A DNA stretch of 64,000 nt, from positions 144,501 to 208,500 of the forward strand of contig JAIGNY010000165.1 of assembly GCA_020152595.1 (NCBI GenBank), read 5' to 3'. Source of the DNA: Chiridota heheva. Taxonomy: Eukaryota > Echinodermata > Holothuroidea > Apodida > Chiridotidae. Below are positions 8,505-63,815 of the stretch, in pieces. Made by a program: the position numbers and the translations under genes. The notes under the pieces are model-generated. The model was not told the DNA's origin. It saw only the letters and a program-made list of their open reading frames with translations, and did no database searches. Position 1 is the first letter of the stretch, and the number at the start of each line of letters is the position of its first letter.

Positions 8505-8925
8505 GTGTTTCACTTTTAGGCATATGCCGGCTAGGGAAAGCACACCTAAGTCACAATGACTTGTTTTCAGTGTGTAGCAAATGAATTTGCCAGAATGGAA
8601 AGTGGATGAACACCAGGTTAACACTGTTTTTTTCGAGAAGTGTTCAGATAACCAGGCAGGAGGTGAATATCCTACCATCGGGACCGATGGTTTTACGTCC
8701 CCTCTGAAGGACGGTGAGCGCCACTCAACCATTGGCCAATTTTCACAAAGGTTGCGTGGGGGAGATGGTGTGATGCAGAAGACAAACCTCTGTGTTTGAT
8801 GTCAACATATATCGTCCTGCATATCTGTGAAAAAATCGCTGGTTTAATCGCCATTAGACTTGAACCTGGGACCTCCAGCATCCCAGTCGTACTTTCAGCC
8901 GACTAAGCTACCTGCCTCCCATAGC
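8505..8925 (-). mobile_element. tRNA-derived SINE S2, copy 1
   Basis: On the minus strand the element begins with a tRNA-like head: A box TAGCTTAGTCGG (complement at 8899-8910) and B box GGTTCAAGTCT (complement at 8856-8866). A long body of about 350 bp follows, containing GGACGGTGAGCGCCAC and CCTACCATCGGGA when read on the plus strand. A second copy lies at 61535-61928 in the same orientation. The conserved A/B boxes identify it as a polymerase III-derived SINE. Confidence 0.85.
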
Positions 8926-10711: not shown

Positions 10712-13159
10712 CAGGGCCGTAATTCCAGGGTGGGACACATGTCCCCCACCACTTTTCCATTAAAAAACCCCCCAAAAACCAGAACATTCTGGGGAAAATT
10801 TGCCTCTTGTTCCCCACACTTTTTGGTTCTGATGCAATAGCATAAGAAACCTATGCGGTCATGATGGCGTGTGTGTGTATGTATGTGCGCACGTATGTAT
10901 ACGTGTGTATGTGTATGTTTGTGATGTCCAGCTCATAAACGCGATATCTCAAGAACGATACACTGGATTCATGTCATATGTGGTACACAGATAGCCATGG
11001 TCCATAGATGGGCCCTATTGTTGTTGGTAGTGATAACATGCATATTAATGAGTAGGCGAGGCTTATTGTAAAAATCTTGAAATGTTCATATTTGAACAAC
11101 CACATGTCTGTTTTGTTTCATATTTGGTGTAATTATGATGTTAGCTAGTGTGTACATGTTCATGGTGTAAAAATGTTGAATTTCATTAATATGCAAAGTG
11201 GGTGGGGATTGATATCATTTTGTTGAAAAGAGCTTGTAAACACAGTATCTCAAGAACTATACTTAATGGAACTAATGTATAGTTAATACTAATACGTAAT
11301 GGAACCCATGATAAACACAGTATCGGGGATGTGAGTGGGATATCAAAAATTCTTTTGAAGATTATTAATATGTAGCACAAATTATTACGTCTTCGGCAAA
11401 TAGCGTGGGAAGGAAAGGGGAGGGGGGGTGAGGTCATTTTGACTATACCACGTGCTGGAAAATATATTTTCCCAACAAACAAAAACTTAAAGGAAGTAGG
11501 GAGAAAAATGAATTCACAGGGATGTTTGAACAAAAAATTATGCTTTCAGCAAAAGTTATGAGCTGTTTTGTATAAATTATAATGTGTGGGTCAATAGGAA
11601 ATTCTAACCTATTCCGGCCAATTATCGAAGTTATACGAGTGACATGGTCAATTTGATCAGACCACATGGTGGGAAATTATATGTTGTCTAAAAACAACAA
11701 AAAATTAGCTTCATGTTTGAAAATCCCATCTTGCACATATCTCACTCATATTCAACAATTATGAATTTACTATCACGTGAGGATATAACCAGTAATCCAT
11801 ATACATTGCAAGAAATTGGGATTCCCCACCTGCGCTAGTGCTACAGACCCAGGCCTATGCAAATTATGTTTTGCGCAAGTCAGTCTATTATTTTGCAATC
11901 TGGCAAACCGTCTAAAAAAAAAAAAAAAAACTTATTTTAGTCAAGCCCGTCTTTTACCGTACAAGGCTAACAAACTGCTCTCACCCTAATGACTGGTCCC
12001 TTTACAGTGTACTAAACTTACAGTGTGCATCACGTAATGTTGTGTTGTACATTGCATTATTTAGGCCTTGACTATTCATGTGCACATGTTCATAGCTTCC
12101 AAAAATTGCCAAGTTTAATCAATCGCGGAAATTTTAAAACTTAAACTTGCGGTTCTACACAGCCCTTTCAGTCATTTTCTAGGCAATTTTGCTGTAACAA
12201 AATGAAGATGGAACTCCATGTTTACCAATTATTATTGACTGGAAGTATTTTAAAACATTCTGAAAGATATTTCATGCTGTGTGAATCATGGAACTTGGGC
12301 CTAGGACCTAGTGTTAGAACTAGTGAATACTAGTGAAAGTTGGTTCATGAATGACCAAGTGATTACTAACTTGTGTACTTGCCAAATAATTTTGTTAGAA
12401 TAAGTTGTTTTTAGTATGAAATATCAAGGAAAGAAGACAAAAAAAATGATATTTTGACATTTATTCACTTAGTTTTTCTTTCAAAATACCGTTTTTTTTT
12501 AACCAGTTTTTATCACTCTCGGAATTCCCGGTTGTAGTTACGAATCCTTATGTTGTCAGGATTGCGCAATACCCGGATAGGGATACCAGGACTTACGTGA
12601 CTACCAGAATCCTGCACATTGTTATCGATTTCGCAGGCAATTGGGGAAAAGAAAGGTTTTTTATACTTACTAAAATATTTCTTAGGAGGGATTTTACTCT
12701 TAGAATACGTTTTATGAGCAGAAAACAATATATTATAGGATGTTGATGCTATATGTTTGAGAAAACAATATTTGAAAATCCACTGTTCCCGGAACAGTGT
12801 AACAGCGGAAATTTTGACCCCTGGAATATAAATGAGTAGGTGGGGCTTACTGACAAATTCTTTCTATAGGATAAATGAGCAATTGTATTTGCATCCTACT
12901 TGCTATGATAATGTTGTTAATTATTGTGCAAATTACTATTGTTGATAACATTTTTATTGATCTGCATGGTGGGTGTGGTTTATTAATAAATATCCTGGAA
13001 CAAATATTTAATGACATGACAGGTAAGTAGAAATTTTGCAAATCAAATCAGTTTGTGAAAAAAAAGCATCGGAACCACAACACCTTTAGGTTCTGGTTGG
13101 ATAAGAGTCCATGTCCCCACCCCCCTCCCTCAACTTTCCAGATGAGAATTACAGCCCTG
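10712..13159 (+). mobile_element. hAT-A element, complete 2.45-kb copy
   Basis: Termini CAGGGCCGTAATTC and GAATTACAGCCCTG form an inverted repeat. They are bracketed by a perfect 8-bp duplication TGCTAAAC (10704-10711 and 13160-13167). Length of duplication and CAGGG terminus fit the hAT superfamily. The interior is non-coding and built of related blocks with ATGCATATTAATGAGTAGG, GGTACACAGATAG and ATCTCAAGAACGATACACTG. A 400-bp block (11290-11690) is repeated at 55570-55985. Its 115-codon minus frame (11186-11533) has no transposase features. I infer a non-autonomous element whose fragments are scattered over the window. Confidence 0.85.
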
Positions 13160-13930: not shown

Positions 13931-15420
13931 GACTGTTATCACATTGTAATGACTGATATTTTCTCTTCGATTGAAATCTGATCAAAAGCTGGGTTGAAAA
14001 GTTTGAAGCACATGGAGCAGTACGGGGACAGAGCAATTATATTTGATCCAACAAACTGTATCACGTGGCTCATGTATGCCAAAACAGTTTCCTACACGTT
14101 TGGGTATTAGTATGTAATATGGTAATGTAAAAGTGGTTGCCACGCCATTTTGACAAGCGTAGAGATTTTTGAAATTTATTATTATTATAAAAAAAAATTC
14201 CGCCCCTGTTTTTTGACGGGCTAGGTTCGGTGAAAGAGGGCAATCAAACAACTGTTTTAGGCCTAAAATTGAAAAAATACCTTTTTACAAAAATGGACGG
14301 AATAGAATAGGTAGCACAGAACTTATTATTTGCCGTATTGAAACCTATGATAAAAGATTTGAGTTCGGATTTTTTTGTACCAGAATGCAAATGATTTCAG
14401 ATATTTCGTGATGTTTTCCGAAAAGTAAGTACTATATCTTTCGGATGAGGGTAATTTCAATAGGGGGTCACCAGAGATTTATGCCCTCAAAATTAAAAAA
14501 AAAAAAAACTTTTGTCTGGGGGTTTTCATTTGGGCTGGCGCAGTAATACTGAATTAGTGCTGTGCTACCAATTTGTGTACAAGGTACACATATTAAAGGC
14601 AACGGACGCACCTGGGAAAATTGTGCAATATCTCGTTGTTTTCAGCAAGTTACTGTGTGACACGACTACACAGATAAATCTGATTGGCTCACATAGCTTG
14701 CAAGAAATGCGTTAGTGTCAATATGGGTGGGAACGCTATATCCTTTTGAGTAATGTCTTTGCTTGACGGAAATGGAAAGTTTTAGACTCGCTATCTCTAT
14801 CGCTATCTCTATCGCTATCTCCATCGCTGTTTTATTTCTTTAAATGGGCGGAGCTTCGGAGCTCTCCTTATGCATAGAATACTGTACTTTCCAAACTATT
14901 CCAGAAACAAATTCACTGAGCTGCCGCTGATATTAGACTAGTATGTACTACATACAGTACAGATATGCACACAGTATGTGTATATATACAGGCCGGAGCC
15001 ATGACAGGCATTGAGTGTAAACTTTCTGCTGTAGGGGCCTACTTGTTTCTCCCAGTAGGCCTGAAATTAATGTTTAAAAATCCAAGTAAGTTTGTGCATG
15101 TTGATTTAATTTGTTTTTAAACCACCTACTTTATTTTAATGTGTGAGTGTGTAGTCTTGCTATGGTTTTTGCGTACGTACGGTCATGAAGTCAGGCCCAG
15201 GAAAAGGGCAATACAGAGGTATGCTAGTTGCGCGAAATTTGTCAAATTTCAGTTGAAAGTGTTGGCGAGTAGTTGAAAATACTTGGCGAGTGGAAATACT
15301 GGTTTCATCGAATTTACTTGATAATCTGTATAAGAGCCTGGCGAGTGACTCCTTGTATTTTTCCAAGCCTGGTTAGCACTAGTGTGTGTGTGTGTTTGTT
15401 TGCATGTGCAACTCCCATTC
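13931..15420. other. no gene; small tandem repeat
   Basis: Contains a CGCTATCTCTAT 12-bp repeat at about 14791-14830 and a short perfect hairpin GGAGCTTCGGAGCTC near 14850. A GT-rich run precedes the LINE at 15381-15402. No coding signal was found. Confidence 0.5.
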
Positions 15421-16215
15421 CATGGTGGTGAGTGGTATTGAAGTAACAAAATCTACCTCAATCAAATATCTTGGAGTTTACTGGGATGAATCACTGTCAT
15501 TTCGCCAACAGATTAAGGCTAAATGTAAAACTGCACTCTTCAATCTCAGTAGGATCAGGAGCATAAGGAAGTACTTGACAATTGATATTTGCCAAACACT
15601 TGCCTCATCTCTGGTTTTACCTCACCTCGACTATTCAAACACCTTGTACTATGATCTTCCTGATTGTGATATAAAACAGTTGCAACGGGTCCAGAACATG
15701 ACTGCCAAGATGGTTCTAGGTAGAGGAAAGTTTGATAGTGCTACTGACTCTCTTCGCTCCCTTCACTGGTTACCAATAAAATCCCGAATAACATATAGAA
15801 TTGCAACATATGTCTACAAATGTCTTCATGATCTGGCTCCTTCATATCTTAAAGAACTCATCATTATACGTACAGGTCGAACAGGTTTACGCTCTTCTTC
15901 TAACACCATGGGCATTCTCCTCGACATTCCTCTCACAAAACGCAGAACATTTAAAGACAGGTCGTTTGCTGTAGCTGCCCCTGTCACATGGAATAGTTTG
16001 CCATCTTCTCTTCGTTGCATCAATAACTACGATAATTTCAAACGGGAACTAAAAACTGTTTTGTTCACCCAGGCTTTTGTATAATTGTTTGTGTTTATCT
16101 TTATCCTATGAACTTTTTTAACTTTATGAACAGTTTTATTTATTTTCTGTACAGCGCCGCTGAATGTGCATTGTATAGATATTGAGCGCTATATAAATAT
16201 ATAAACATAAACATA
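15421..16215 (+). pseudogene. CR1/L2-like LINE, reverse transcriptase C-terminus and 3' UTR
   Basis: An open frame of about 220 codons ending with TAA at 16082-16084 contains the ordered landmarks of the C-terminal part of CR1/L2-type ORF2: IKYLGVYWDESLSF, LDYSNTLYYDLPD, LQRVQNMTAKMVLG, LHWLPIKSRITYRI, LAPSYLKEL and AAPVTWNSLPSSLR. The catalytic palm (YxDD) lies upstream and is missing, so this is a 5'-truncated copy. The 3' UTR carries GAGCGCTATATAAAT and ends in ATAAACATAAACATA, a typical short 3' tail repeat. The first residues of the apparent frame, up to about 15420, come from a GT-rich repeat and not from the LINE. The intact frame indicates a relatively recent insertion. Confidence 0.9.
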
Positions 16216-17742: not shown

Positions 17743-18767
17743 CAGGGTTCTAGCTAGACAAGTTTGAGTGCCGGGCTCCAGTGACAATCTAGGGTGACCT
17801 CCAAGACCCCCTCCCATTAAGAAGTGTTCGAATTTAGTCCACTTCTATTGACAAATTGTCAACGAAAAAGTTTTCTTTTATTATTACTTTTTTAATCGGA
17901 ATGCTAGAAAGATTTACAAAAAAAAATTCATGTAAAATGGATATTCAAAATACAATGGATATTTTAGTGTCAAAATACCCCCTACCCCCTTCCTCTCCAA
18001 ATAAAAAAAGGACAACATATGCCTGAAACTCTTCTCTCAATTCCCATTGTTATTCGTCTTGCCCAAACTTTTTACCGCTTTTATTTTTGTCCCAGTATCA
18101 TTCGACGAAAGTCATGCGGCACATGTTCCTATGAAGTACGCAACAACTTTTGTCAATATTAAATTCCCCTCAAATCAAAAGAATATCGATCAGTCCGTTA
18201 TAATGTTAAGTGCATATAGGGTTTATAACAAATGTGATTGGCTACTTACATTTGGACCGGTCAATAATCACGCCTTGGGCTCTTGGGGGTGTAATATTTA
18301 CTTTGTTAATGTTTGTTTGTACGGTAAGTGACGGACTTGGCAAGCTGCCAGCAGTGATTCACAAGGATTAAAATGTGAACCCGAACTGTGTGCATGTACG
18401 TATGTTTATGCAAAGAGCTTCGTGTATGAGTGATTTTATGATAATACATTCAAGTACGTATGTTTATGCAAAGAGCTTCGTGTATGGGTGATTTTATCAT
18501 AATACATTCAATTGCGTTAAATTCCTATAGTTCAGTTGTTTTGCTCGGAATTTATTGTGCGTAATGTATGTTATGTTATGTGTGTAATTCAGCAAATGAC
18601 ATAAATAGAACGAGATTAAAAGGAGATCTGTTTAAACACTTAATTAATTAACCGAATTGAACGTTTGAGTGCTGGGCGGAAGTGTGAATCTTAGAGCCGA
18701 GTGCTGGGCGGGAATTGCGAGTCCTAAGCGGGTCCGCCCAGCGCCGCCCACCGTAGCTAGAACCCTG
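17743..18767 (+). mobile_element. hAT-D element (CAGGGTTCTAGC termini)
   Basis: A 1025-bp segment bounded by CAGGGTTCTAGCTA and TAGCTAGAACCCTG, which are inverted repeats. Subterminal motifs near both ends are GTGCCGGGC-like and GTGCTGGGCGG. The flanking 8-mers are CCTTCAAT (17735-17742) and CCTCAAAT (18768-18775), a diverged 8-bp duplication. Terminus and duplication length fit hAT. An internal 58-bp direct duplication (around ACGTATGTTTATGCAAAGAG) spans 18388-18503. The 94-codon plus frame at 18047-18331 shows no transposase motif. Confidence 0.75.
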
Positions 18768-20839: not shown

Positions 20840-22685
20840 ACTCATTCATCAACAGTCATGTCCAAAGTGTCCATAATACTCATTCATCAATAGTCATGTC
20901 CAAAGTGTCCATAATACTCATTCATCAATAGTCATGTCCAAAGTGTCCATAATACTCATTCATCAATAGTCGTGTTTGAAGTATCCATTACTCATTCATC
21001 AATAGTCATGTTCAAAGTATCCATTACTCATTCATCAATAGTCATGTTCAAAGTGTCCATAATACTCATTCATCAATAGTCATGTTCAAAGTGTCCATAA
21101 TACTCATTCATCAATAGTCATGTTCAAAGTTTCCATAATACTCATTCATCAACAGTCATGTTCAAAGTTTCCATAATACTCATTCATCAATAGTCATGTT
21201 CAAAGTATCCATTACTCATTCATCAATAGTCATGTTCAAAGTGTCCATAATACTCATTTATCAATAGTCATGTTCAAAGCTTCCATACTCATTCATCAAT
21301 AGTCATGTTCAAAGTGTCCATAATACTCATTCATCAATAGTCATGTTCAAAGTGTCCATAATACTCATTCATCAATAGTCGTGTTTGAAGTATCCATTAC
21401 TCAATCATCAATAGTCATGTTCAAAGTATCCATTACTCATTCATCAATAGTCATGTTCAAAGTTTCCATAATACTCATTCATCAATAGTCATGTTCAAAG
21501 TATCCATTACTCATTCATCAATAGTCATGTTCAAAGTGTCCATAATACTCATTCATCAATAGTCATGTTCAAAGTTTCCATAATACTCATTCATCAATAG
21601 TCATGTTCAAAGTGTCCATAATACTCATTCATCAATAGTCATGTTCAAAGTATCCATTACTCATTCATCAATAGTCATGTTCAAAGTTTCCATAACTCAT
21701 TTATCAATAGTCATGTTCAAAGTGTCCATAATACTCATTCATCAATAGTCATGTTCAAAGTTTCCATAATACTCATTCATCAATAGTCATGTTCAAAGTA
21801 TCCATTACTCATTCATCAATAGTCATGTTCAAAGTGTCCATAATACTCATTCATCAATAGTCATGTTCAAAGTATCCATTACTCATTCATCAATAGTCAT
21901 GTTCAAAGTATCCATTACTCATTCATCAATAGTCATGTTCAAAGTGTCCATAATACTCATTCATCAATAGTCATGTTCAAAGTTTCCATTACTCATTCAT
22001 CAATAGTCATGTTCAAAGTTTCCATAACTCATTTATCAACAGTCATGTCCAAAGTTTCCATAACTCATTTATCAACAGTCATGTCCAAAGTGTCCATAAT
22101 ACTCATTCATCAATAGTCATGTTCAAAGTTTCCATAACTCATTCATCAATAGTCATGTTCAAAGTTTCCATAACTCATTTATCAACAGTCATGTCCAAAG
22201 TTTCCATTACTCATTCATCAAAAGTCATGTTCAAAGTTTCCATAATACTCATTTATTGGTAGTCATGTCCAAAGTTTCCATTACTCATTCATCAATAGTC
22301 ATGTTCAAAGTTTCCATACTCATTCATCAATACTTATGTTCAAAGTTTTCATAACTCATTCATCAATAGTCATGTTCAAAGCATCCATAATACTCATTCA
22401 TCAATAGTCATGTTCAAAGCTTCCATAATACTCATTCATCAACAGTCATGTCCAAAGTTTCCATACTCATTCATCAACAGTCATGTCCAAAGTTTCCATT
22501 ACTCATTCATCAATAGTCATGTCCAAAGTTTCCATTACTCATTCATCGATAGTCAGGTCCAAAGTTTTCATACTCATTTATCGATAGACAAGTTTAAAGT
22601 TTCCATACTCATTCATAGATAGTCAGGTCCAATGTTTCAGTACTCATTCATCAGTAGTCATGTTCAAAGTTGCCGTACTCCTTAA
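20840..22685 (+). repeat. minisatellite, roughly fifty 35-38-bp units
   Basis: The unit is CTCATTCATCAATAGTCATG followed by TTCAAAGTGTCCATAATA, or the shorter ...AAAGTATCCATTA. The two length classes (about 35 and 38 bp) are interspersed in runs, and divergence grows towards the right end (22240-22685). The mixture of unit types suggests amplification by unequal exchange of short blocks. No sustained reading frame crosses it. Confidence 0.95.
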
Positions 22686-27211: not shown

Positions 27212-28675
27212 GGACGAAACCCCATGAAGCAATATATGATTTTATTAATTTGACAGCCAAATTAGGACTTAAGTTTGGTTGGAATTTATACACATTTTAT
27301 TTTTATCAATCCATATGGTACATTAGGTTGACAAAATTTCGCAACCTGGAAATTACTATGTTATGACAGTTTGAAAATAAACAAAATGAGCATTCAAAGG
27401 ATTTTCACCCCGGAAGGGCTACGATACATACAATCATTTGAGAGTCCAAAAAAAGCTAAGATTCGGTAATTAATTAGTAAATTTGGACAAACTTTAAAAA
27501 CCGTTTGCAATCACCCATGTCTGACCATTGTGTCCACTCGCATAACAAAATATCATCTTTGTGAGGGATGACACCCTACTGTGATTGACCAAACAATTTT
27601 GATCAGTATATCATCTAAAGAAGTGCATGAGAAGGCGTGGTTTGGTATTCACTATTTAATATGCTATCAAAAATCTGGCTCAGACAGAACGAAGTTTCCC
27701 CAACGTAATTTGACTTAATATTGTTATTTATTATAATGTAGTACGCCTGGGTAGTAAAACTTATGGTTTGGATTGGTTTGATGAGGTTTAATGAAACTTA
27801 TAACACAAAAACAGTTTTTTTTTTTTCTTTCTGCATGTGACTGGGGCTCATATATTGCAATTTAACAATAACAATGATTTAGTGGTACTACATGACAAGC
27901 AGTCGATAATTTTAATAGTTTTTAGTTGTGATTTTTTTCTTCAATCAAACATGTGAAAGCCAAACTTAATATGTTAGCGGTCATATAAATTATACAAGAA
28001 ATTTCACTTGTTGGAAGAATATCGTTTTCGTTTCATGCGGGGGAGCACGTGTTATATTACAGAATCTAGGTCACTGCACGAAATTGAATACCTCGTGGTG
28101 TTGCCACGCTTTGTGATGCGGTTGAATAATTTTGCTCAGTAATACATAAATCTGTTTAGATTGCCCACAATTACCAACTGAACCGAGAATTCCGTATCAA
28201 ATCATTGACATTCCCTACAATGAGTAAATATTTTTATCACCGTTGTTTGTCAACACGGGAAGTACATTAAAGCAAAGGAGAGGTTCATGAAAAAGTTGAA
28301 GATTAGCTGTACACACCTTTATTTTCAGAAAGCGTTATGGATATTTTAGACCTCTTCACTAATTGTGATGTAATTCCATTTTTTTTCTGTATGTTTATTT
28401 TTAATGATAAATTTGGTATCTTGTATGTTATGGTTTTACCCATCTGGTCTCGGTAAGCAAATTTAATTTTATGACTGCATTGGTTATATGTAGGCCTATA
28501 CGGCATTCTTACACTTGTCGACCCTTGCAGACAACATTTTTGTGGGAAAAAGGGGGTGGGAGATTTGGCAATTTTTTTGTAAAATTCCTCCTTGCCCCTT
28601 CCACTGGGAGGATCACCCTTCCCAAAGAAATCTTGGACATAGGTGCTACACAGCTGAGGATAAAGAGAAGATAAC
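27212..28675. other. unassigned stretch
   Basis: AT-rich with no repeat partner found. A 124-codon minus frame (28303-28677) is the longest unexplained frame here. It crosses a C/G-rich low-complexity segment and shows no domain, so it is treated as chance. Confidence 0.35.
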
Positions 28676-28679
28676 AAGA

Positions 28680-29055
28680 GGCAGTTTTGTTGAAATATTC
28701 TGAATATTTTAAAATTCTCCCTCTACTGCTCTGAGTCAGTATAATGCCAGCTTCAAAATTTCAATATAAGCCTGGGCTATAATAATAAAAGCTTTACGGT
28801 GAAAGTTGTTTTGTTTTTTTTTTTTTTTAGATCTGAATTAGGCCTAAACATAGGCCTACACAGGTGAAAGGGAAGAAACATGAGGCAGTTTTTGTTGAAA
28901 TATTCTGGGAGCATAGGAATATTTTCAAAAATCCCCTCCCTGCTGTGGGTCAGTATAAGCCAGCTTTAAAATTTCAATATAAGCCTAGGCTATAGTAATA
29001 AAAGCTTTATGGTGTAATTTTTTGTTTTGTTGTAGAACTTAATTAGGCCTAACCT
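28680..29055 (+). repeat. tandem duplication of a unit of about 195 bp
   Basis: Two diverged copies share TTTTGTTGAAATATTCTG, GAGTCAGTATAA or GGGTCAGTATAAG, TTCAATATAAGCCT and AATAAAAGCTTTA, followed by TTAGGCCTAA. A poly-T run sits in the first copy (28813-28830). Confidence 0.8.
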
Positions 29056-29521: not shown

Positions 29522-29725
29522 GCATGGATGGTCATTTCTTGTATTGACATTTAATCAATAAGGGTGTTTATTCAGCTGACATCATGAGGTCACATGACTT
29601 TGTTTACACCATCATTTTGCAGGGAAAAAAACACTGTTGTCTGCTGTACACCTAGTTAGACTTACATACATTTGCATGTTATTAGATGAGATTATTTTTG
29701 TAAGATATCGGGTAAGATAATTATC
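29522..29725 (+). mobile_element. 5' flank of the THAP/P-like element
   Basis: Parallels 10432-10600 (TTCAGCTGA, ATGAGG, GACTTTGTTTA, TTGCATGTTATTAGATGAG against TTGCATGTTGTTATATAAG, TAAGATAT) and leads directly into the THAP exon. It probably holds the element's 5' UTR or promoter. No terminal inverted repeat was located, so the outer boundary is open. Confidence 0.5.
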
Positions 29726-34985: not shown

Positions 34986-35552
34986 TAGTAAAAATAGTAA
35001 GAGGTTAAATATAATCATAAACTAAGTGGAGATGAAAATACATGAAGGTAAACTAGAGTTAGTCATTAACCAGCTGTCAGTCTAACCATTCTAAATATAT
35101 CACCGAGAAGCAAGATGCGGAAAATTAAATTTTGTCTAGATTATTGCGTTACTTTTCTCCCAAGTTGATGCGTGGATATGATCTGATTTGGGGGCACTCT
35201 TGTTTAGATGAAGCACTTATGTTCTTCTCATCAAGACAAAACTTGACATCGAAAGAATTGATGTTGTTTAAATTTGATTATTGTCCATGCGGTACATGTC
35301 GTGTTCTTTTAAAATTGCTTTCAGAATTGAATAGAAAAAAGTGGAAGTTCGATCTTATCAGGTGAAATTACTGTAGTTATTTGTATGGATATGATTTTTC
35401 GTTTCTGTCCTTGGGAGATACAGGGTAGTTTTTATCAGTCGTTTATCGTTTAAACGAAAACATGCCATAAAGTCTGATCAAGCTCCTTGTAGATCTGTGA
35501 CCATTTAGTGTGTACACTAAATTTCTACACAGACAAGACCCCTATCTCCTTA
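34986..35552. other. unassigned stretch with one open frame
   Basis: The plus frame from 35129 to about 35365 reads GYDLIWGHSCLDEALMFFSS and FDYCPCGTCRVLLKLLSEL and ends near CAGGTGAAA. It is not recognised. It is noted because its composition is more protein-like than its neighbours. Confidence 0.3.
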
Positions 35553-36245
35553 ATGAATAAGATTTTTGAATGCTTTCTTCACCATTTTGTTTCTTTTGAA
35601 GTCCTCTTTCATAAAAGATAAACATGCTTGACCACTGAACTAATCCTTTAACGGAATAAGATTTTTGAATGCTTTCTTCACCATTTTGTTTCTTTTGAAG
35701 TCCTTGTTCATATAAGATAAACATGCTTGACCACTGAACTAATCCTTTAACGGAATAAGATTTTTGAATGCTTTCTTCACCATTTTGTTTCTTTTGAAGT
35801 CCTTGTTCATATAAGATAAACATGCTTGACCACTGAACTAATCCTTTAACGGAATAAGATTTTTGAATGCTTTCTTCACCATTTTCTTTCTTTTGAAGTC
35901 CTCTTTCATATAAGATAAACATGCTTGACCACTGAACTAATCCTTTAACGGAATAAGATTTTTGAATGCTTTCTTCACCATTTTCTTTCTTTTGAAGTCC
36001 TCTTTCATATAAGATAAACATGCTCGACCACTGAACTAATCCTTTAATGGAATAAGATTTTTGAATGCTTTCTTCACCATTTTCTTTCTTTTGAATTCTT
36101 CTTTCATATAAGATAAACATGCTTGACCACTGAACTAATCCTTTAACGGAATAAGATGTTTAATACTTTCTTCACCATTTTCTTTCTTTTGAAGTCCTCT
36201 TTTATATAAGATAAACATGCTTGACCACTAAACTAATCCTTTAAC
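35553..36245 (-). repeat. 99-bp tandem array of the family T terminus (33-codon unit)
   Basis: Seven copies of a 99-bp unit (GGAATAAGATTTTTGAATGC ... CTGAACTAATCCTTTAAC); adjacent starts at 35653, 35752 and 35851 give the exact period. The unit is the terminal segment of family T (compare 37640-37735 and 47895-48015). Because 99 is divisible by three and the unit has one stop-free frame on the minus strand, the first six units form a 192-codon frame (35542-36120) repeating GLVQWSSMFILYERGLQKKE. The same residues can be read from isolated T copies, so the frame need not be expressed. No promoter or splice context was found. Confidence 0.85.
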
Positions 36246-38998: not shown

Positions 38999-40305
38999 GC
39001 CAATGTGGTTGGTGGCCCTGGACAACACAATGCAAAGTTCAAACCCTGCTTTTTCGCAGGGTTGGAATACTTTACATTTCTTCCCCACCTCACCTCACCT
39101 AGTCTCTTCAGGCCTCCTGACCCATAAGGCTGCAGTGCACTCTTGCAACTTGTCTGGCTTCTGTCCATGAGCTCCATCCCATCACTTTCCTCTCCTTCTC
39201 GACTGTCCTTCTCTAGGTCATTCTAGGACATCCAACTTTCCTTCTCCCCTCTGGTTTCCACGTCCCAGCTGTCACACAGTGCTTGATAGTGCTTGAATTC
39301 TCAGGTATTTGCAACCTTCAAAAACACATAAAAATAGTTTCCATTGACCTTTTTATTTATTCCAATCCCCAAGTCTATTCTTATTCATTATATAACTTAT
39401 TGTCTTTGAAATTTATATCACTAATTTTTCTCTAGACACTCAAAACACATCTGCTATCGAGAAATAATGCAAGTTATCTAAGCGAAAACTTGACACTCAG
39501 ACAATCTTGGACAAAACTGTTGGAACACTTTAGGTTTTTGAGAACTACATATGTTATAGTGTTATGATTCTTAATTTTTGTTCTCCGAGAATTGTAACCC
39601 TCTACCCCCTCCCCCCTTTTCAATATTGAATTTCTTTCTTTCTTAATGTCATTTCCAGGAAAAACAGTAACAACGGGCAACATTGAATGGGAAGGGGGAG
39701 GAGGGAGGACAATTAATATAGTGAGGTAGGGGACGGGACACTGGCGGCATCAATGAAATGATAAAAATGTCCTACAAATTATAAAATATTAATTATAATT
39801 GGAAGAGTAGAGATTGAAAAAGCAACAGAAAAAATGTCCAGCATTTCTGATTTCTAAATGTGGAATAATTTACAATAGAAAAGTAGCTTCATGAAAAACA
39901 TCACATATTTTCACTGAGTGTTTCAACAAGTTTTGTCCAAGATCGTAGGTTTTTTGGTGCGAAACAGTCATTTTGAAAATTCAGATATTTGTTACTAGTA
40001 TAACTTTGTTGTTGAAATTGCAGATTATAAGGAATAAAATTACACATCGCAAAATCTTACGTTCTATATATGACAAAATGGGCTCTCACTTAATCTTTCT
40101 GTACATTTTTATTGAAAATGAACATAACGGCTGCAGGAAGTCTATTATCTCAGGTATTTTACAGGTTCCTTGTGGTAGGACCTGTCCCGAACTGATTGTA
40201 CAGTCTAAAAGCTAAGGGCTCATTTTCTTGCATGTAATTACTCATTTTCAGGACAACGCAAGCAAAGATTCTTACATATACAGGTACATGTTTACAAAGA
40301 GACTT
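38999..40305. other. no gene called
   Basis: Pyrimidine-rich DNA at 39050-39270 (CCTCACCTCACCTAGTC, CTTTCCTCTCCTTCTCGAC) resembles a decayed retroelement 3' end. A possible 62-bp exon at 39659-39720 (TTTCCAG on the left, GTGAGG on the right, reading KTVTTGNIEWEGGGG) is not strong enough to call. Confidence 0.35.
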
Positions 40306-40307
40306 AA

Positions 40308-41355
40308 GGAATATTCCCATGGTTTTTTGTAAAAGTTTATTTAAAAAAACATACTTTCAGAACCAATTTGGTACAAAAATCAGGTTGATATCATATTCCG
40401 TTCAGGAGATATGGATTTTTAAAGGAATATTCCCATGGTTTTTTTGTAAATTTTTATTTGAAAGAATATACTTTTAGACCCAATTTGGTACAAAAATCGG
40501 GTTAATATCATATTCTGTTCAGGAGATATGGATTTTTAAAGATTTCTTAATTGCATTTTAAAGTTTTTGTACCGTATGATGAATTTGTATTTGATGATGT
40601 CATAGAGGCACTTCCATTGCAAATGTTTATGTATTTCTTTGAATGTTAATTGGTTGTTTCTGTATGATTAGAAACAATTTTCCAAAAGTCATTGCAGTTA
40701 TTTAGCAATGTACATAAATAAATACCTACTTTCATCAATTAATTTTTCTAGCAGGTTTTACTAATAAAAAGGATGATAGATTTTAATGAAATACATCAAC
40801 TCTGTGGGAGAATGTGTTGCTGTGATGAGCTTTTTCCTAAATGTTTATTAGCATTTTTTGTGAACTTTAAAATTTGATTGTAGGAATAACATCAACATGA
40901 TTTGATTTTTGTACTAAATTGTTTCTAAAATTGTTCTCTTTCTCAATATGAAAGGTTATAAAAAGAAAAAAAAATGAAATAATCCTTTACTGTAATTCTT
41001 TATTGCTAATTACATTATCAATTTAATGTGCTTATACTTCTTCCTGTTTTGGGGAAGCTGGTGTCATTAAATGATGTTTATCTAATGTTTTAATCTGCAT
41101 ATGATGTATCTGGTATTTAGATCAAACATCATGTTCCCGTTGTTTACCAGAAAGATTACAATACATGTAGATTAACTAAATATAGAAACCACATTACCAG
41201 AGCATTACTTGCTATCACTTTCTTCACTGTCAGTGAACCGAACTTGGAATTCTCAGTTCATCGCCCAAGTTAAAGTTGTGTAAGGATGACTTGATGCTTT
41301 CTATGTTGTTAATGGTTTGCTAGTTAAGTGTCCTTAAAAGTTTAAAGGAATATTC
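40308..41355 (+). mobile_element. family U element, copy 1
   Basis: Both ends carry AAGGAATATTCCC, and a second internal copy of the left end starts at about 40422. The body (CATATTCTGTTCAGGAGATA, TGATGATGTCATAGAGGC, TAATTGGTTGTTTCTGTATG, GGATGATAGATTTTAATGA, GTGGGAGAATGTGTTGCTG) is shared with 48510-48960 and, reversed, with 62990-63560. Non-coding, of unknown class. The palindromic GGAATATTCC terminus is its marker. Confidence 0.75.
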
Positions 41356-48965: not shown

Positions 48966-49455
48966 TTATAATAATGGGAATATTTCTTTAAAAACATGGG
49001 ATTTTTTTTTTTTTAACATTGGAATATTCCTTAAAAAAATGGGAATATTTCTTCAAAAAACATGGGAACATTTCTTTAAAAACATGGGAATATTCCTTTA
49101 AAAACATGGGAATATTCCTTTAAAAATATGGGAATATTCCTTTAATGCAAATGCACAATATTTGTGTTTTATCTCTACGCTTTGTACTTAAGGGTTTTGT
49201 ATAGCAGGGGAGCTGTTGCTTCTAAAACATGGGAATATTCCTTTAATGCAAATGCACAATATTAGTGTTTTATCTCTACGCTTTGTACTTAAGGGTATTG
49301 TATAGCAGGGAGCTGTTGCTTCTAAAACATGGGAATATTCCTTTAATGCAAATGCACAATATTAGTGTTTTATCTCTACGCTTTGTACCTAAGGGTATTG
49401 TATAGCAGGGAGCTGTTGCTTCTAAAACATGGGAATATTCCTTTAATGCAAATGT
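48966..49455 (+). repeat. two-level tandem array of the U terminus
   Basis: The left part (48966-49145) is a series of about seven units of roughly 22 bp, AAAAACATGGGAATATTCCT. The right part has three full 100-101-bp units: GCAAATGCAC starts at 49147, 49248, 49348 and 49448. Each contains CTCTACGCTTTGTAC, GCAGGGAGCTGTTGCTTC and one GGGAATATTCCTTTAA. A transposon terminus has seeded both a short and a long period repeat. Confidence 0.9.
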
Positions 49456-55985: not shown

Positions 55986-56751
55986 GGTCACACAAAATTC
56001 ATCTCTAGGAGGTCTTGCATCCCATTACATTATTTTCTCAGAATTATCACGCATGCATATCATTGTTCCTAGTTATTTATTCTAGATATGGAGCACTTTT
56101 CAGCAAGCATTAATATCCCCAACAGATATATCCCCTGTTAGTAAATAAATCCCCATTTAAGCTTAGCCCAGGGTCCAGGGAGCTGTTATTTTGACAGCTC
56201 CATGGTAAGCCTGAGAAGGAAACTGTTTCCCGGGTGCTATGTACTTAAATGCTTTCCACATGGAACGTGTACTGACATACTTTTAAAGCTGTGAACGTTT
56301 GGGGATTTTAGTAAACGTGTACATACCAAAAAGTGATTGTGTATCCTTTACACGCGTTTAGTATCGTAATTTTGAAAGTAAACCAAAATTGCTCCAATTT
56401 ACAATGCAAAGCAATAACTAAATCGCGCAACCAGTATGGCAAATATTGACTCCATTGCTCAAAAAGAAACTGGAAGTTTGCTTTCCAAATTGTGAATAGA
56501 TAGATCATCATTTTTATGGAAATTATGAATGGAAAATTGGTCATGAAAGAACAGAAAAGTTTCATTCAATGTCTTTTAATCTTAACATTGCGTAACTTCT
56601 TTTCTGTACTCGCTAGGACTTTCAGTGAAAATCTTGGATACTGTGATATCTCGGTGCCTCGCCGTTATCAATTTCAAAACTACTCCATCACCCCGGGAGC
56701 ACATGATATGTATTTGAAATTCATATATGTTTTGTTTATTTCTCTCCACAG
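55986..56751. other. putative intron upstream of candidate exon 1
   Basis: No repeat partner was found. A hairpin GGAGCTGTTATTTTGACAGC occurs at 56178. The last 20 bases before 56752 form a T/C-rich acceptor tract. Confidence 0.4.
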
Positions 56752-56817
56752 GATAAAGGTGTGAAAGTGCCAAGTCCCTGTCCAGGAGGACCCAGTGCTT
56801 TTATTCCCAGTTCAGAG
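56752..56817 (+). CDS. candidate internal exon 1 of an unknown plus-strand gene (66 bp)
   Basis: Bounded by TTTATTTCTCTCCACAG on the left and GTGAGT on the right, both near-consensus splice signals. Of the three frames only one is open, reading DKGVKVPSPCPGGPSAFIPS then SE; the other two have stops within the first four codons. The exon is exactly 22 codons and begins and ends in phase 0, so it could be skipped without shifting the frame. The peptide is Pro/Ser/Gly-rich and probably unstructured. The gene is not identified. The second candidate exon at 62781-62810 is compatible in strand and phase. Confidence 0.6.
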
Positions 56818-58164
56818 GTGAGTCAGGCATGCACCACATTAGTCAGTTCTGTACATGCCCCGAACAGGAGATCTCTCAATTGGGAGATTTTTTGTCATTA
56901 TAACCCACAATGCATCTTTCCAAATTCAATTCTTTCTATACATAACAGTAAAATAGGTTTAAGTCAAAGGTATGAAAAATAAATGCAAAATATTGTAATT
57001 TTACGATGAAATTAATTCTCGACTTTCAACCATCGCAAGTTTGACTTTCACCGGGAAATTTTAAAGTAATCTTTAAAAATTCATTTCAATATTCTCTGAT
57101 AAGCAGGTTTTAAAATTTTAGTCACCAGCAAAAGCTCAAATTATACAAGAAAGAATTTTAAATTCCAGAAATATTAATTTCAATATCATTCAAACTATAA
57201 CATTTTAGAATAACAGAATTTGAAAAGCAAAATAATATTTAACAGCTGGACTTATTATTTTAGCAACAGTTTAAATTATTGTCACTGCGCATCTCTTAAT
57301 CAGTGGATTTCCCGATCGGGAGCATGGACGGGACTCATATCATTTCATTTATTAAATCAGTGCACTAGGCCCTTGGCCCTTGTCACAAAATATTTACAAA
57401 AATATCAACAACATATGTAAAAATGATAATAGGATCGAGGATCGTTATAAACAGATAAACGATAAAAGAAATAACCAAGCATAGTATGTGCTGAACATAC
57501 CTTACATTTCACGAAACGTAATGGCATGCATGATATAAATATAAAGCGATTTACACAATTGTTCAGTGCATGGACACAACTTTTGTTTAATTTTCAAATA
57601 ATCATAATTTTCAAGTATTATTTAAATGTATATGAACAGATAGAGGCAACCAATTTTAGCTACATTGATTTACAAAATCTATCATTAAAAGACATAAGAG
57701 AAGCAAAACATTTCAAAAAAATTGGTCAATTATTAATTAGTCATTTTACACCTTTTTGAAAAAATTTGTGTTCAAATATGCAATATTTTGTGTTACTCTT
57801 GTGATGTATGAACACGAAATAGTTTCTATTTTCCTATGTAAATCCTGTATTTTAACCCTCTGCCATTTCTTTTTGAAAAAGGGGAGATAATTCTTATGAA
57901 AGTGATTTGATCTTAACCGTACCCCCAACCAACCTCAAGCTGGAAAAGGCATTATCAAGGTCTGAAATTAAGGAAAGAAATATAAAGAAAAAAAAAAGAA
58001 CTTTGATGTGTTTTCCTGTTCATACATCACATTTTTTCAATATATTAAAAGTTTTTCAAACTTTGATTACTCGTGAAACTGAAAGCTACTCATAGTATTT
58101 AACACAAAATTCAAGACTTATTAAACTTAAAATTTTAATGCTCTATTCGGTACGTGGTTGAACA
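56818..58164. other. putative intron with repeat Q, copy 2
   Basis: 57625-57900 parallels repeat Q (AACAGATAGAGGCAACCA, TTTTGTGTTACTCTTGTGAT, TCCTATGTAAATCCTG). 56860-56960 (CACAATGCATCTTTCCAAAT) and 57290-57330 (CCCGATCGGGAGCATGGACG) share words with the arms of the large palindrome that follows. Confidence 0.45.
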
Positions 58165-58935
58165 GAAAACTTTTCTACCTGTCCATCAGTCCGGTTTGTA
58201 CCCTGATCGGGAGAACAGTTTTGTTTTCCTGATCAGGGGATCCTTTACAGAAGTATTCCACAATGCATCTATCCAAATTCAAAGTTTGTATAGGAATCAG
58301 ATAAGAAATTTTGAGCACGGAGAACTGAACCTGGGAAGGGTTCAAATTTGTCTTCACGATTTAAAATAATGGCATATAAATTATCTTTTCACCATGCGCT
58401 TTTAAAATTTACCGTTGAATTTTCGAGAAATTTGAAGAAATGTTGTGACCTCTTATTTAGGCAGTCACATTTTAACAAGATTTTCTGAAGAAAAAAACAA
58501 CAAAACATTTTGTAAAGTTTTGCTCGGGAATTGTTTTTGACTGTCATGGTTATCGTCAAAAATACTTCCTGAACAAAACTTTAAAATGTTTTTTTAATTC
58601 ATTTAAAATCTTTTTCAAAACGTGACTGCTAATGGTAAAACATAATAAGAAGTCACCACTTTTCTCAAATTTCTCGAAAATTCCACGGAATTTTTTAAAG
58701 TGCACAGTGAAAAGATAATTCATATGCCATTATTCAATTTGTGAGAAAAATTTGAACCTTTGCAGTGGATGAGTTTCCTGCGCTTGAAGTTTGTAATATT
58801 CTTATATGATTCTTATACAAACTTTGAATTTGGATTGATGCATTGTGGGATACTTCTGTAAAGAATACCCAGATCAAGAGAACAAAACTGTTTTTCCAAT
58901 CGGGATACGAACCAGATTGTCCATTGACCTTTAAG
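58165..58935. mobile_element. large imperfect palindrome (about 770 bp)
   Basis: Two arms of about 380 bp are mutual reverse complements with scattered mismatches. Left-arm words GTCCATCAGTCCGGTTTGTA, AAGTATTCCACAATGCATC, AAATTCAAAGTTTGTATAGG and AAATTTCTCGAAAA-like text reappear complemented in reverse order as TTATACAAACTTTGAATTTG, GATGCATTGTGGGATACTT and ATACGAACCAGATTGTCC. The centre lies near 58545 (TTTTTGACTGTCATGGTTAT). Such a structure could be a foldback transposon or a head-to-head duplication. Confidence 0.8.
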
Positions 58936-59340
58936 TTAACATCTACTACAAACCATTCCAGTTTGAAAAATATCTGGAATGAATATTTCCGGAAGTGAAA
59001 ACTTTAGTATATCATCTAAGTTTATTATTGTATTATCCCATATTCTGTATGTGTACCACATTGTTTTTAAGTATGATGATGACTTTGCACAACACCAAGA
59101 CTTTTTTGTTTGGTTCAACTTAGTCATTTTGAGAGTGAAGTTTTGAAATTAAAATATCTATTTGCAGAATAATTTAAATCAATCAATTAATTACTGTATT
59201 TGACATAATAAATGCCCAGGGCACTGACAAAAATTAAATTAAACCACTTTTTACTGCCCAATTTTCTTCCTAATAAGCACCTATGCTAAAATTAGGGGGA
59301 TTGGGGTGTTCATGCCCAGCACCACAACCAGTGGGGTCGA
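58936..59340. other. nothing recognised apart from a small shared relic
   Basis: 59195-59290 resembles 54000-54070 (TTTACTGCCCAATTTTCTTC, CCTAATAAGCACCTATGCT). Confidence 0.4.
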
Positions 59341-61217
59341 CTAGCTCACCTTGGTGGGTGAAAAGCGAAAATTAGTAGCCTGTCGATGACCTGTAGGTCA
59401 CCTAAGTCAACTTTACCTCCTAATGGTTTCCCCTGGTAACTAGTTCCATATGGTGCTAGGCTAACAAAGGCACTGGCTAAGGGAAGGAAAACACTGAAAC
59501 AAAACTTGCTGCAATGGACTAACAACCCATTCAGCTCATTCAATTGTTACGGAAACTTAAGTGCACTAGTTAATGCTGGTAATATTATTGGCTTTGGGAG
59601 TATGATGATCCAAGTTCCTAAAGATGACAATCTGAGGTTTGTGGATAACATGACGCCAATGGGTGAAAGCCACAAGGAAGTTCATGGGTTGATGACTCAA
59701 TTGCCAAACCCACCAGCAGCACTCTTACAGGGTGCTGGATTGTAAGATCGCTTTTCGCAATTGGAAAAGCAGCTCAGTCGCCAAAGCAGATGGAGCAGTA
59801 TAATAAGGACATTCTTGGTATAAGTGAGTGTAGGTGGACGGCTTTGGTAAAGTCAAGCTGACTACTGGCAAAGTATTTTATTTTCGGGCAGAGATGATGA
59901 AATGCATTATTAGGCAGTTGCATTCATGTTATCAAAGAAAGCTGAACAGACACTATTAGAATGGAAACCTATAAATGAGAGGTTGATTAATGCAAGGTTT
60001 TTTTCAAAGTATATTAAATTGTCAATCATTCAAGTTTATGCTTCAACAAATGATGCAATTGATGAAGACAAGGAAGCTTTTTATGATCAGTTATAAGCCC
60101 TGGTAGATGGAGTTCCCAAGCATGACCTATTAATCATAATGGGCGACTTGAATGCCAAAGTTTGATGTAATAATGATGATTATGATAATGTTATTGGAAG
60201 GCATGGCATTGGTGAAAGGAATGCTAATGGTGAAAGGCTTTTGGACTTCTGTGGTATCAACAATTTATTGGTGACTGGCACAATTTTTCCACATAGACTC
60301 GTGCATAAACAGACCGGGACTTTCAAGGAGGGAGGACAAAGAACCAAATTGTTCATGTGTTTGTAATAAAGCAACACAGAACTTCCATATTAGACACAAG
60401 AGTGATGAGAGGGGCTGACATTTCAAATGATCACCACTTGATACGGACCAGGATCCGATTGAAATTGAAAGGGAAAACTGATAACAAAGACATGTTGACC
60501 CAAGAATAATACCATCAAGTTACAGCAACCAGCAATCAGAAAAGAGTTTTCGGTTGAAGTATGAAATAGATTTGAAGTTTTACAAGACTGCTGTGGTGAG
60601 ACTGAAGTACCTGATAACATTGACGAAGTTGAGAGTAAGTGGCAGACATTTGAAGAGGTATACAATGGGGCTGCTGCAAAGGTCCTTGGGTACAAAAAGA
60701 AGGGCCATAAGCCATAGATCAGCAGAGAAAGTTGGAAATGTGTTGAGGAGAAAAAAACAGCTGAAGGTTAATATTGAGAATGCCAAATCAATTAGAATTA
60801 AAGTTATTATGAGAGCTAAGTATACCGAAAAAGAGATACAAGAAAGTGGGTTGATAACCTTGCTACATCTGCAGAGGAAGCAGCTAGTAATGGCAGATTG
60901 AGAGAGCTTTACAAGATAACCAAAACAATTAGCAATGAAAGGACCAAGGCTGGGAGTGCTATAAGAGACAAGGGTGGGAATCTATAAAGGGATGAAAAAG
61001 AAAAAAGAGAGAGGTGGAAAGAGCATTTCGAGGAGATGCTTAATAGACCAGATCCTGTTTTTCTAGTTCCTTAACATAACATGTGACCCTGAAATATACA
61101 AAATCAGTACCAGTTATATTACAAGAAGTGAAATAAAAGAGGCATTGATTAAGCTAAAGAATAACAAAGCTGCAGGCAAGGATAATATAATTGCCAAGTT
61201 GTTAAAAGCTGATATTA
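59341..61217 (+). pseudogene. RTE-like LINE: endonuclease and start of reverse transcriptase, decayed
   Basis: After a 5' region with short frames, 59770-60480 encodes an apurinic/apyrimidinic-type endonuclease in pieces: ILGISECRWT, then KLSIIQVYASTNDAIDEDKE, then LLIIMGDLNAKV, then NGERLLDFCGINNLLVTGTI and GADISNDHHLIRTRIRLKLK. GDLNAKV and SNDHHL correspond to the catalytic GDxN and SDHxx regions; the usual SD reads SN here. The frame is broken repeatedly (for example a TGA directly after NAKV). A linker region (60554-60901) follows, then RSEIKEALIKLKNNKAAGKD at 61120-61217, which starts the reverse transcriptase. The element stops there at an (ATG)n run, so the palm and 3' end are missing. 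The order EN-linker-RT fits RTE clade elements. Confidence 0.8.
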
Positions 61218-61240
61218 TGATGATGATGATGACGATGATG
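61204..61240 (+). repeat. (ATG)n microsatellite at a LINE-LINE junction
   Basis: ATTATGATGATGATGATGACG separates the truncated RTE-like LINE from a minus-strand LINE fragment. RTE tails are often (ATG)n-like, so this run may be a tail or simply a local expansion. Confidence 0.7.
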
Positions 61241-61245
61241 AAATA

Positions 61246-61470
61246 TTACTGTTCAAAGCAATTTTTAAACAGGTGTGTCTTAAAGTTTTTCTTAAACAAT
61301 AAGTGATTCGTAGTTGCGTATGAAATCAGGGAGCTGGTTCCAGAGATAAGATGCAGCATGTGTGAAAGAACAGTTACCATATGACTGAAGCTGCAGTATA
61401 GGAAGTAGAAAAAGATTTTTTTTTGTAGCACTGCCGAGCATTCGATTGGGTATGTGAACAGGAACAATCT
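61246..61470 (-). pseudogene. LINE fragment, ORF2 C-terminal end
   Basis: The minus strand reads LPILQLQSYGNCSFTHAASY, then LWNQLPDFIRNYESLIV, then after a frameshift FKKNFKTHLFKNCF. The YG.RSF..AAP.LWN.LP..IR...S...FKK.LKTHLF pattern is the standard end of CR1/L2-like ORF2. About 60 codons remain; upstream RT is absent. Confidence 0.7.
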
Positions 61471-61534
61471 AATGCAAATAAATAACCAAATTCATTTTTT
61501 GGCCATTTGTTTTGTTGTTTTGTTTTGTTTGTAC

Positions 61535-61928
61535 TTTTAGGCAAATGCCAGGAAAAGCACACACAATTCACAATGACTTGTTTTCAGTGTGAACCCAATG
61601 AATATTTCCAGGATGGAAAATGTATGAACACCGGGTTGATACCCTGCTCTTTTTGAGAAGTGTTCAGGTAGGGGGTGAAACTCCTACCATCGGGAGCAAC
61701 GACTTTATGTCCCTTCTGTAGGACGGTGAGCGCCACCCAACCATTGGCCGCTTTTTCCCAAAGGTCGGGTGGGGAGAAGGTGTAATGCAGAAAACCTCTG
61801 CGCTAAATGTCAGCGTATATCGTTTGCATATCTGTGGAAAAACAGCTGGTTAAGTCGCCGTTGGACTCAAATCTGGGACCTACAGCATCTCAGTCGTAGG
61901 CTCAACCGACTGAGCTACCTGCCTCCCT
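61535..61928 (-). mobile_element. tRNA-derived SINE S2, copy 2
   Basis: Collinear with 8505-8925 in the same orientation. The head is at the right with A box TAGCTCAGTCGG (complement at 61907-61918) and a diverged B box (complement at 61863-61873); the body has GGACGGTGAGCGCCACC and CTACCATCGGGAGC. A T/G-rich segment precedes it on the left. Confidence 0.85.
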
Positions 61929-62780
61929 ACCTGACTTGAGCTACCTTTTGTGGGAGTTCCTCCCTTTAATTATTTTTGAGGGAGAATTTGATGATATGTG
62001 CGGAAATCCCACAATCCCGCACTTTAATGTGAGCACTGGTACCTGTATGGGTAGTATGGCAAGTACAGTATTTGGTTTCGAGTCAGTCCTAGAATTAATG
62101 TTAAATAAGACGCCATAAAAAAATAATACAAAAATAAAAATTATAATAATAATTAAAAAAATATTATTAGCTTATCATCCTGGTGCAGATCAGTTTTGAG
62201 AGAATCCCAGATTTTGTTGTTGTTGAAAAAGAACTAAATTTTTCTCTCAGATCAGTCATTCAGCATCCGTCCTTCCATTTTGAAATACAAGCGATTTCTT
62301 CCGATAAGTTTTCAATATTTATTATGCCTGATGTGGTTGACCTGATCCGGAACGTTGCAAATCACCAAAATGAATTGGCTTGGGAGTAAAAAAAATTAAA
62401 GTAAAAAGTGCCTGCCTTGCATCAAGTTTTCCAACTGGGTTAGGGTGATAAGCTAAATATTTTTTTTTTTTTACAAGGCCCAATTGTTTTTGACATGGTT
62501 GATTTGATATTATTTTTATTTTGTCCCTTTCAAAATATATAGTACTGAGTACTAAATAATCCTGTTACAACATCTTTGACTTTTTTTTTATGTGTGTGTG
62601 TGTGGGTGTGTGTGTGGGTGGGTGTGTGTATGTGTTTGTTTGTGTGGGGAGTGGCAGGGGGCATGATGGTTGTCCCTGATTGAGCAAGATACTCTTCCTG
62701 TAATTTGTTGTATGTCACATGCTGACAAATCCAAGGTTATATTATTAAAGATCCTCTTTTTCTCTCTCTATTTTTTACAG
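61929..62780. other. putative intron; two protein-like frames and a TG microsatellite
   Basis: Plus frames 61936-62118 (...DMCGNPTIPHFNVSTGTCMG...) and 62183-62389 (...ERIPDFVVVEKELNFSLRSV...) are open but unrecognised and end in stops without a donor. A (TG)n tract lies at 62591-62645. The last 20 bases before 62781 are the acceptor tract of candidate exon 2. Confidence 0.4.
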
Positions 62781-62810
62781 TTTTCAGCGGACAATGGGAC
62801 AGATGACCCT
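62781..62810 (+). CDS. candidate internal microexon 2 of an unknown plus-strand gene (30 bp)
   Basis: Left side TCTCTCTATTTTTTACAG is a strong pyrimidine tract plus AG, and right side GTAAGT is a consensus donor. Ten codons in phase 0 read FSADNGTDDP, matching the phase of candidate exon 1 six kilobases upstream. A second AG (TTTTCAG) seven bases further in would leave 23 bp, a worse fit. The very short exon and acidic, polar peptide suggest a cassette microexon in a linker. The gene is unidentified. Confidence 0.5.
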
Positions 62811-62879
62811 GTAAGTACAGTACAGTTAACTTTATTTTGTGAGCCAAGTGAAAGTTTGTGAATTTGTATAACTTGTGTG
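62811..62879. other. putative intron start
   Basis: Follows the candidate donor GTAAGT. No other feature. Confidence 0.4.
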
Positions 62880-63815
62880 AGTCTTAAACAAATTTGTAGA
62901 AAAATCATGTTGATATGTTAATCCTACCAGGTGATATTCAAATTTTAATGTTCACAAAAAATGGCAATAAACGAATAGGAATAAGCTCAGTATGACATCA
63001 CAGCAACTCATTCTCCCACAAAGTTGATGTACTTTATTAAAATCTATCATCCTTTTTTTAAAGTAAAACCTGCTAGAAAAATGAATTGATGAAAGTTGAA
63101 TATTTATATAAATTACCAAATATACCCTACTTCAATAATTTTTGGAAAATTGTTTCTAATCATACAGAAACAACAAATTAGTTCAAAGAAATACAACAAC
63201 ATTTGCATTGGATTGCCTCTATGACATCATCAAACAAGAATTCATCATACTGTACAACAATTTCAAAATGCAATTGGGAAATCTTTAAAAATCCATCTCT
63301 TGAACGCAATATGATATCAACCTGTTTTTTGTACCAAATTGGCTTTAAAGGTATGCTCTTTCAAATATTTTTTAAAACAAAAAACCATGGGAATATTCCT
63401 TAAAAAACCTATATCTCCTGAACGGAATATGATATCATCCTGATTTGTGTATCATATTAGCTCTAAAAGTATGCTCTTTCAAATAATTTTTTTACAAAAA
63501 AACCATGGGAATATTCCTTTAAAAATCTATTTTTCTGAACGGAATATGATATTATCCTGAATTTTGTACCAAATTGGCTCTTAAAGTATGCTTTTCAAAC
63601 AAAATTAACGAAAAACCATGGGAAAAATTCTGTAATAGAACAACGTAAAGAATTATCTTTGATCTGCACTTATGACAAATCACATTCATTGAAAGGTCAC
63701 TTTTTCACACAGGTTAGTGAAATCTTTGAAATGTAATAACTCAGTACGCGGAATAAGGCTTTAATAGCCCTCTACCATGTACCCAAAAATTCACGAGAAT
63801 ATTCCTTTAATCTAA
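62880..63815 (-). mobile_element. family U element, copy 4
   Basis: Reverse of 40308-41560: CAGCAACTCATTCTCCCAC, AATTAGTTCAAAGAAATAC, ATGACATCATCAAACAAGAA, GAACGCAATATGATATCAAC, CCATGGGAATATTCCTT. The left-end segment (CTGAACGGAATATGATATCA, GTATGCTCTTTC) is present three times at 63290-63600, so this copy has an internally triplicated terminus. It ends ATTCCTTTAA at about 63810. Confidence 0.75.

Follow-up and report, generated by a model that had tools for sequence, protein, structure and literature searches.

The window, which is the whole 64-kb stretch of DNA analysed here, is AT-rich (GC 0.31–0.42 per 2 kb) and rich in tandem arrays; self-repeats, including these arrays, make up 21,471 of its 64,000 bases. 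Scans of the window against Rfam (at the gathering score) and for tRNAs gave no match. By its character it would be animal DNA, perhaps from an invertebrate. Two short segments with splice-like borders, called exon 1 and exon 2 here for convenience, lie about 6 kb apart on the + strand in its right-hand part, and a trace of a mobile element lies between them. The features of this region are as follows:

56720..56724, + strand: possible branch point TTCAT, with branch A at 56723 (match to the pattern yTnAy)
56732..56751, + strand: pyrimidine-rich 3′ splice site of candidate exon 1 (13.4 bits)
56752..56817, + strand: probable internal exon (exon 1), 66 nt, phase 0, translation DKGVKVPSPCPGGPSAFIPSSE (splice-unit scan; rarity in random strands; GC 0.50)
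56818..56823, + strand: 5′ splice site GTGAGT, preceded by GAG (12.1 bits)
59839..61303, + strand: degraded non-LTR retrotransposon (LINE) trace, extent approximate and judged by eye
62781..62810, + strand: second candidate exon (exon 2), 30 nt, FSADNGTDDP in phase 0, phase 1 likewise open (19.1 bits)
62811..62816, + strand: 5′ splice-like site GTAAGT, preceded by CCT (7.3 bits)

The original prediction placed a 66-nt segment with splice-like borders at 56752–56817 and described it as open in a single frame; on re-reading of the sequence the coordinates, size and borders all agree, and phase 0 is indeed its sole open phase. On the + strand it is directly preceded by TTTATTTCTCTCCACAG and directly followed by GTGAGT. 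Its acceptor score is reached at two of the 3291 AG sites of the + strand (itself included) and at none of the 3473 on the − strand; for its donor score the + strand has two such GT sites among 3668 (again counting itself) and the − strand none among 3315. The possible branch point lies 29 nt upstream of exon 1, and the first AG after it is that of the acceptor; another yTnAy match, 14 nt upstream, is probably too close. By BLAST self-comparison (E 1e-8) the segment lies outside every repeat within the window and has no second copy there. A longer form with a later donor (56752–56969, 218 nt, 21.0 bits, also open in phase 0) is less favoured, because the donor of the 66-nt form is much better.

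Both strands were scanned with generic splice matrices, not trained on this species, and exon-like units (21–300 nt, open in some phase) were scored as the sum of their acceptor and donor bits. Exon 1, at 25.5 bits, is the top unit of the 64-kb window on either strand; the runner-up with different borders, 11830–11911 on the − strand, reaches 22.5 bits. The best units of the control sequences score 22.5 bits (reverse complement), 22.4 (merely reversed) and 19.0 (merely complemented). It might be argued that neither segment is an exon and that both are splice-like pairs arisen by chance within an intron or between genes, since exon 1 was picked as the best of a 64-kb window read on two strands, and 3 of 500 random 64-kb strands of order 4 attain its score (best 25.6); allowing for the choice between two strands, such a unit would turn up by chance in roughly one case in a hundred with this harsher null. 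Against this, none of 150 order-2 Markov strands attains it (best 24.5), and exon 1 stands 3 bits clear of the − strand unit, so that this alternative is quite improbable. With so few random strands matching its score, 56752–56817 is very probably a real internal exon; by these generic matrices it has an acceptor with a pyrimidine tract and a donor that are well beyond chance, as is characteristic of U2-type internal exons. The exon first proposed here is well supported by its splice sites, whose summed score is seldom attained in random strands.

The GC content of exon 1 compares with 0.35 in the 500 bases to its left and 0.30 in the 500 bases to its right, and 6% of equal-length windows have a GC content as high or higher. 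The raised GC and the restriction of the open reading to phase 0 make coding plausible; the support is weak, since 30% of letter shuffles of the segment also have phase 0 open, and the case for coding rests mainly on its being an exon at all. A real but non-coding exon (5′ UTR or long non-coding RNA) with an accidental open frame would agree with the 72% of shuffles that are open in some phase, and with the failure of exon 1 in PDB, and of the join of the two segments in PDB, Pfam and NCBIfam, to find a protein match beyond the chance-level one described below. Such an exon is unlikely, however, given a length of 66 with phase 0 open and a GC content well above both flanks. On these features exon 1 is likely a coding exon.

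When the 32-residue join of the two translations was compared with PDB (E up to 10), it matched one distinct sequence, LTV1 (6g18 chain t), at E = 0.54; the matching stretch alone gave E = 4. The ungapped alignment pairs PGGPSAFIPSSE-FSADNGTD, across the join, with PSGPSELIPSSTFSAHNRRE and has 12 of 20 residues identical (counted from the printed alignment). LTV1 is a ribosome biogenesis factor; of eight patterns for conserved LTV1 motifs that would be expected near this stretch, none matched in the six frames of the window, where three of three positive controls were found. That the join belongs to LTV1 is therefore highly improbable: a 20-residue match spanning the join speaks for it, but its E-value is at chance level, exon 1 by itself has no match in PDB, and the expected neighbour motifs are nowhere in the window. 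The identity was rejected on the E-value and the absent motifs, and the likeness to LTV1 amounts to a chance-level ungapped similarity over 20 residues in DNA that lacks the protein's expected flanking motifs. The join hit no family in Pfam or NCBIfam. A degenerate VKVPSPCPGGP pattern found no stretch in viral contigs and none in prokaryote genome contigs, as expected of an animal gene.

The 30-nt segment at 62781–62810 is directly preceded by TTTTTCTCTCTCTATTTTTTACAG and directly followed by GTAAGT on the + strand. The size, borders and open phase 0 given for it in the original prediction stand, with the amendment that phase 1, unmentioned there, is open too. Its acceptor is strong, being equalled at 5 of 3291 AG sites on the + strand and 3 of 3473 on the − strand, and its donor is middling: on the + strand 84 of 3668 GT sites score as high, on the − strand 78 of 3315. 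Upstream, a CTGAC lies at 56 nt, and two further AGs occur between this and the acceptor. The GC content of the segment is 0.50, matched by 12% of equal-length windows, and 56% of its letter shuffles are open in phase 0. No second copy was found within the window by BLAST at E 1e-8, a level that a copy of just 30 nt would hardly attain.

Units whose sum is at least that of exon 2 (19.12 bits) occur 1.67 times per random strand at order 2 and 2.27 times at order 4. If only units that are open in phase 0 and a multiple of three in length are counted, these figures are 0.31 and 0.38, and in 156 of the 500 order-4 strands there is at least one such unit as good as exon 2. In the window itself, units of at least 19.0 bits number eight on the + strand (exon 1 twice, with its two donors) and four on the − strand (one site twice), and the reversed-only and complemented-only controls have one each; those of the phase-0, multiple-of-three class are two on the + strand (56752–56817 and 62781–62810) and none on the − strand. 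This strand contrast is thin for exon 2, since the − strand has 58413–58484, which belongs to this class and just misses at 18.96 bits. The splice signals of 62781–62810 do not stand out from chance in order-2 or order-4 random strands, and chance explains the segment as well as biology does; what had been put forward as an exon is a candidate at background level, a little short of an even prospect of being one.

The DNA between the two segments carries repeats as well as the LINE trace. Positions 59839–60303, at the start of the LINE trace, resemble PF14529 (E = 0.0018; 18.6 bits, under the Pfam cut-off of 27.4); 60304–61100 and 60485–60898 matched no Pfam family, and the only Pfam match of 61067–61303 was below cut-off and to an unrelated family. 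An inverted repeat at 58187–58919 (733 bases, with about 75% self-complementarity from end to end) may be a fold-back element, and the repeat at 61533–61927 has its other copy at 8512–8920. The repeats and the LINE trace fit a transposon-loaded intron, and intergenic DNA fits them as well.

Elsewhere in the window, five other + strand units (18096–18323, 39659–39725, 29623–29711, 28831–28863 and 61722–61768) score 19.2 to 20.8 bits. They were considered as exons of the same gene and set aside, as random strands give scores of this size (at order 2, the median of their best units is 20.1 bits). Of these, 61722–61768 lies inside the repeat that is copied at 8512–8920, and 28831–28863 touches a within-window repeat. 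Pfam searches found no family on 18005–18328, which includes the first of these units, and none in a long-piece scan of the three + frames of 34–64 kb in six pieces, which covers 39659–39725; the long-piece scan is insensitive, having missed the endonuclease trace that was found with a short piece (59839–60303). On the − strand of 34–64 kb the Pfam searches covered 35545–36159 only, and in 1–34 kb single stretches. In the three + frames of 29.6–31.1 kb the only Pfam family is a THAP domain that adjoins unit 29623–29711. This domain (PF05485, 29735–29899, + strand; E = 2.9e-08, 34.8 bits, above the Pfam cut-off) is directly followed by a donor-like CAG/GTATGT (29901), and the stretch could be a host exon or a piece of a transposase gene.

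Only four open frames in the window reach at least 120 codons (about 15386–16084, 35542–36120 in a tandem array, 2910–3308 and 28303–28677), and the last two have no Pfam match above a cut-off. The first, a + strand frame of 233 codons at about 15383–16084, has no match in Pfam (15386–16081) or PDB; by eye it resembles a CR1/L2-like LINE protein in its C-terminal part. The array at 35555–36245 is composed of seven copies of a 99-bp unit, and its − strand is open for 205 codons because 99 is a multiple of three; nine Pfam matches on 35545–36159 of that strand are all below cut-off, with no stretch passing alone, and look like repeat artefacts. A satellite array at 20840–22671 has about 50 copies of a 37–38-bp unit, and the arrays at 40306–40541 (117–118 bp), 48974–49454 (22 bp) and 63295–63599 (100 bp) appear by eye to have a AAACCATGGGAATATTCCTT-like motif in common.

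It seems likely from these features that 56752–56817 is an ordinary internal exon with U2-type GT-AG borders in a + strand animal gene, whose introns would be several kilobases long. The exon would most likely contribute 22 residues to a flexible segment, and its phase 0 and multiple-of-three length would allow it to be included or skipped without a frame shift. The 30-nt segment may follow it in that gene as the next exon; a pair of splice-like sites formed by chance is just as possible. The original prediction went further, suggesting a long-intron host gene that holds both segments and crosses the right end of the window, with possible use of both as cassette exons; a gene extending past the right end is a conjecture. 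A reading in which both are coding exons of one gene, with the second a short, micro-exon-like cassette, overlaps the preferred reading, which leaves exon 2 undecided, and can be held only tentatively. The common phase, the lengths that are multiples of three, the spacing of about 6 kb and the position of both segments outside within-window repeats speak for it. The number of units as good as exon 2 expected by chance (about two per random strand), the nearly equal − strand unit at 58413–58484 and the second open phase of exon 2 speak against it. On balance, membership of 56752–56817 and 62781–62810 in one gene is conceivable and somewhat doubtful, and cassette use is unlikely; it is similarly unlikely that the two form a tandem of small cassettes in long introns which leave the frame intact and, under tissue-specific control, insert flexible linkers, one of 22 and one of 10 residues, into an animal protein.

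With exon 1 taken as an ordinary internal exon and exon 2 as a candidate, the locus offers one probable ordinary exon and one candidate, with no departure from ordinary gene structure and no new biology. If correct, the reading would extend the annotation of an animal gene by one or perhaps two short exons, and its main value would be to recall how easily such exons are overlooked within long introns; no open question is seen to become testable through the 66-nt and 30-nt segments.

Among known exon classes, the neural microexons were considered for exon 2. PMC8797185 describes eMIC-dependent exons of flies as having weak 5′ splice sites, UCUC-rich tracts, long AG exclusion zones, UGC near the 3′ splice site and short flanking introns, and PMC8378409 sets the length limit of neural microexons at 27 nt. 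Exon 2 is like these exons in its shortness, its alternating TCTC and a donor weaker than that of exon 1, and the last two of these traits also favour its being a coding exon of the same gene as exon 1. It differs in its length of 30 nt, above the limit; in an AG 32 nt upstream, against long exclusion zones; and in lacking TGC over the 60 nt upstream of its acceptor (62721–62780; one starts just outside, at 62720), against the UGC enrichment described. The nearest candidate exon, exon 1, is moreover about 6 kb away, against short flanking introns, exon 2 being itself only a candidate. The missing TGC and the distance also count against the one-gene reading as first proposed. Within what these sources describe, the neural microexon reading of exon 2 was rejected, as two traits fit it and length, UGC and distance are against it. 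Exon 1 showed no difference from ordinary U2-type (GT-AG) animal coding exons, with which it shares a pyrimidine tract, a CAG acceptor and a GAG/GTGAGT donor, and like them it is short, in phase 0 and of higher GC content within AT-rich DNA.
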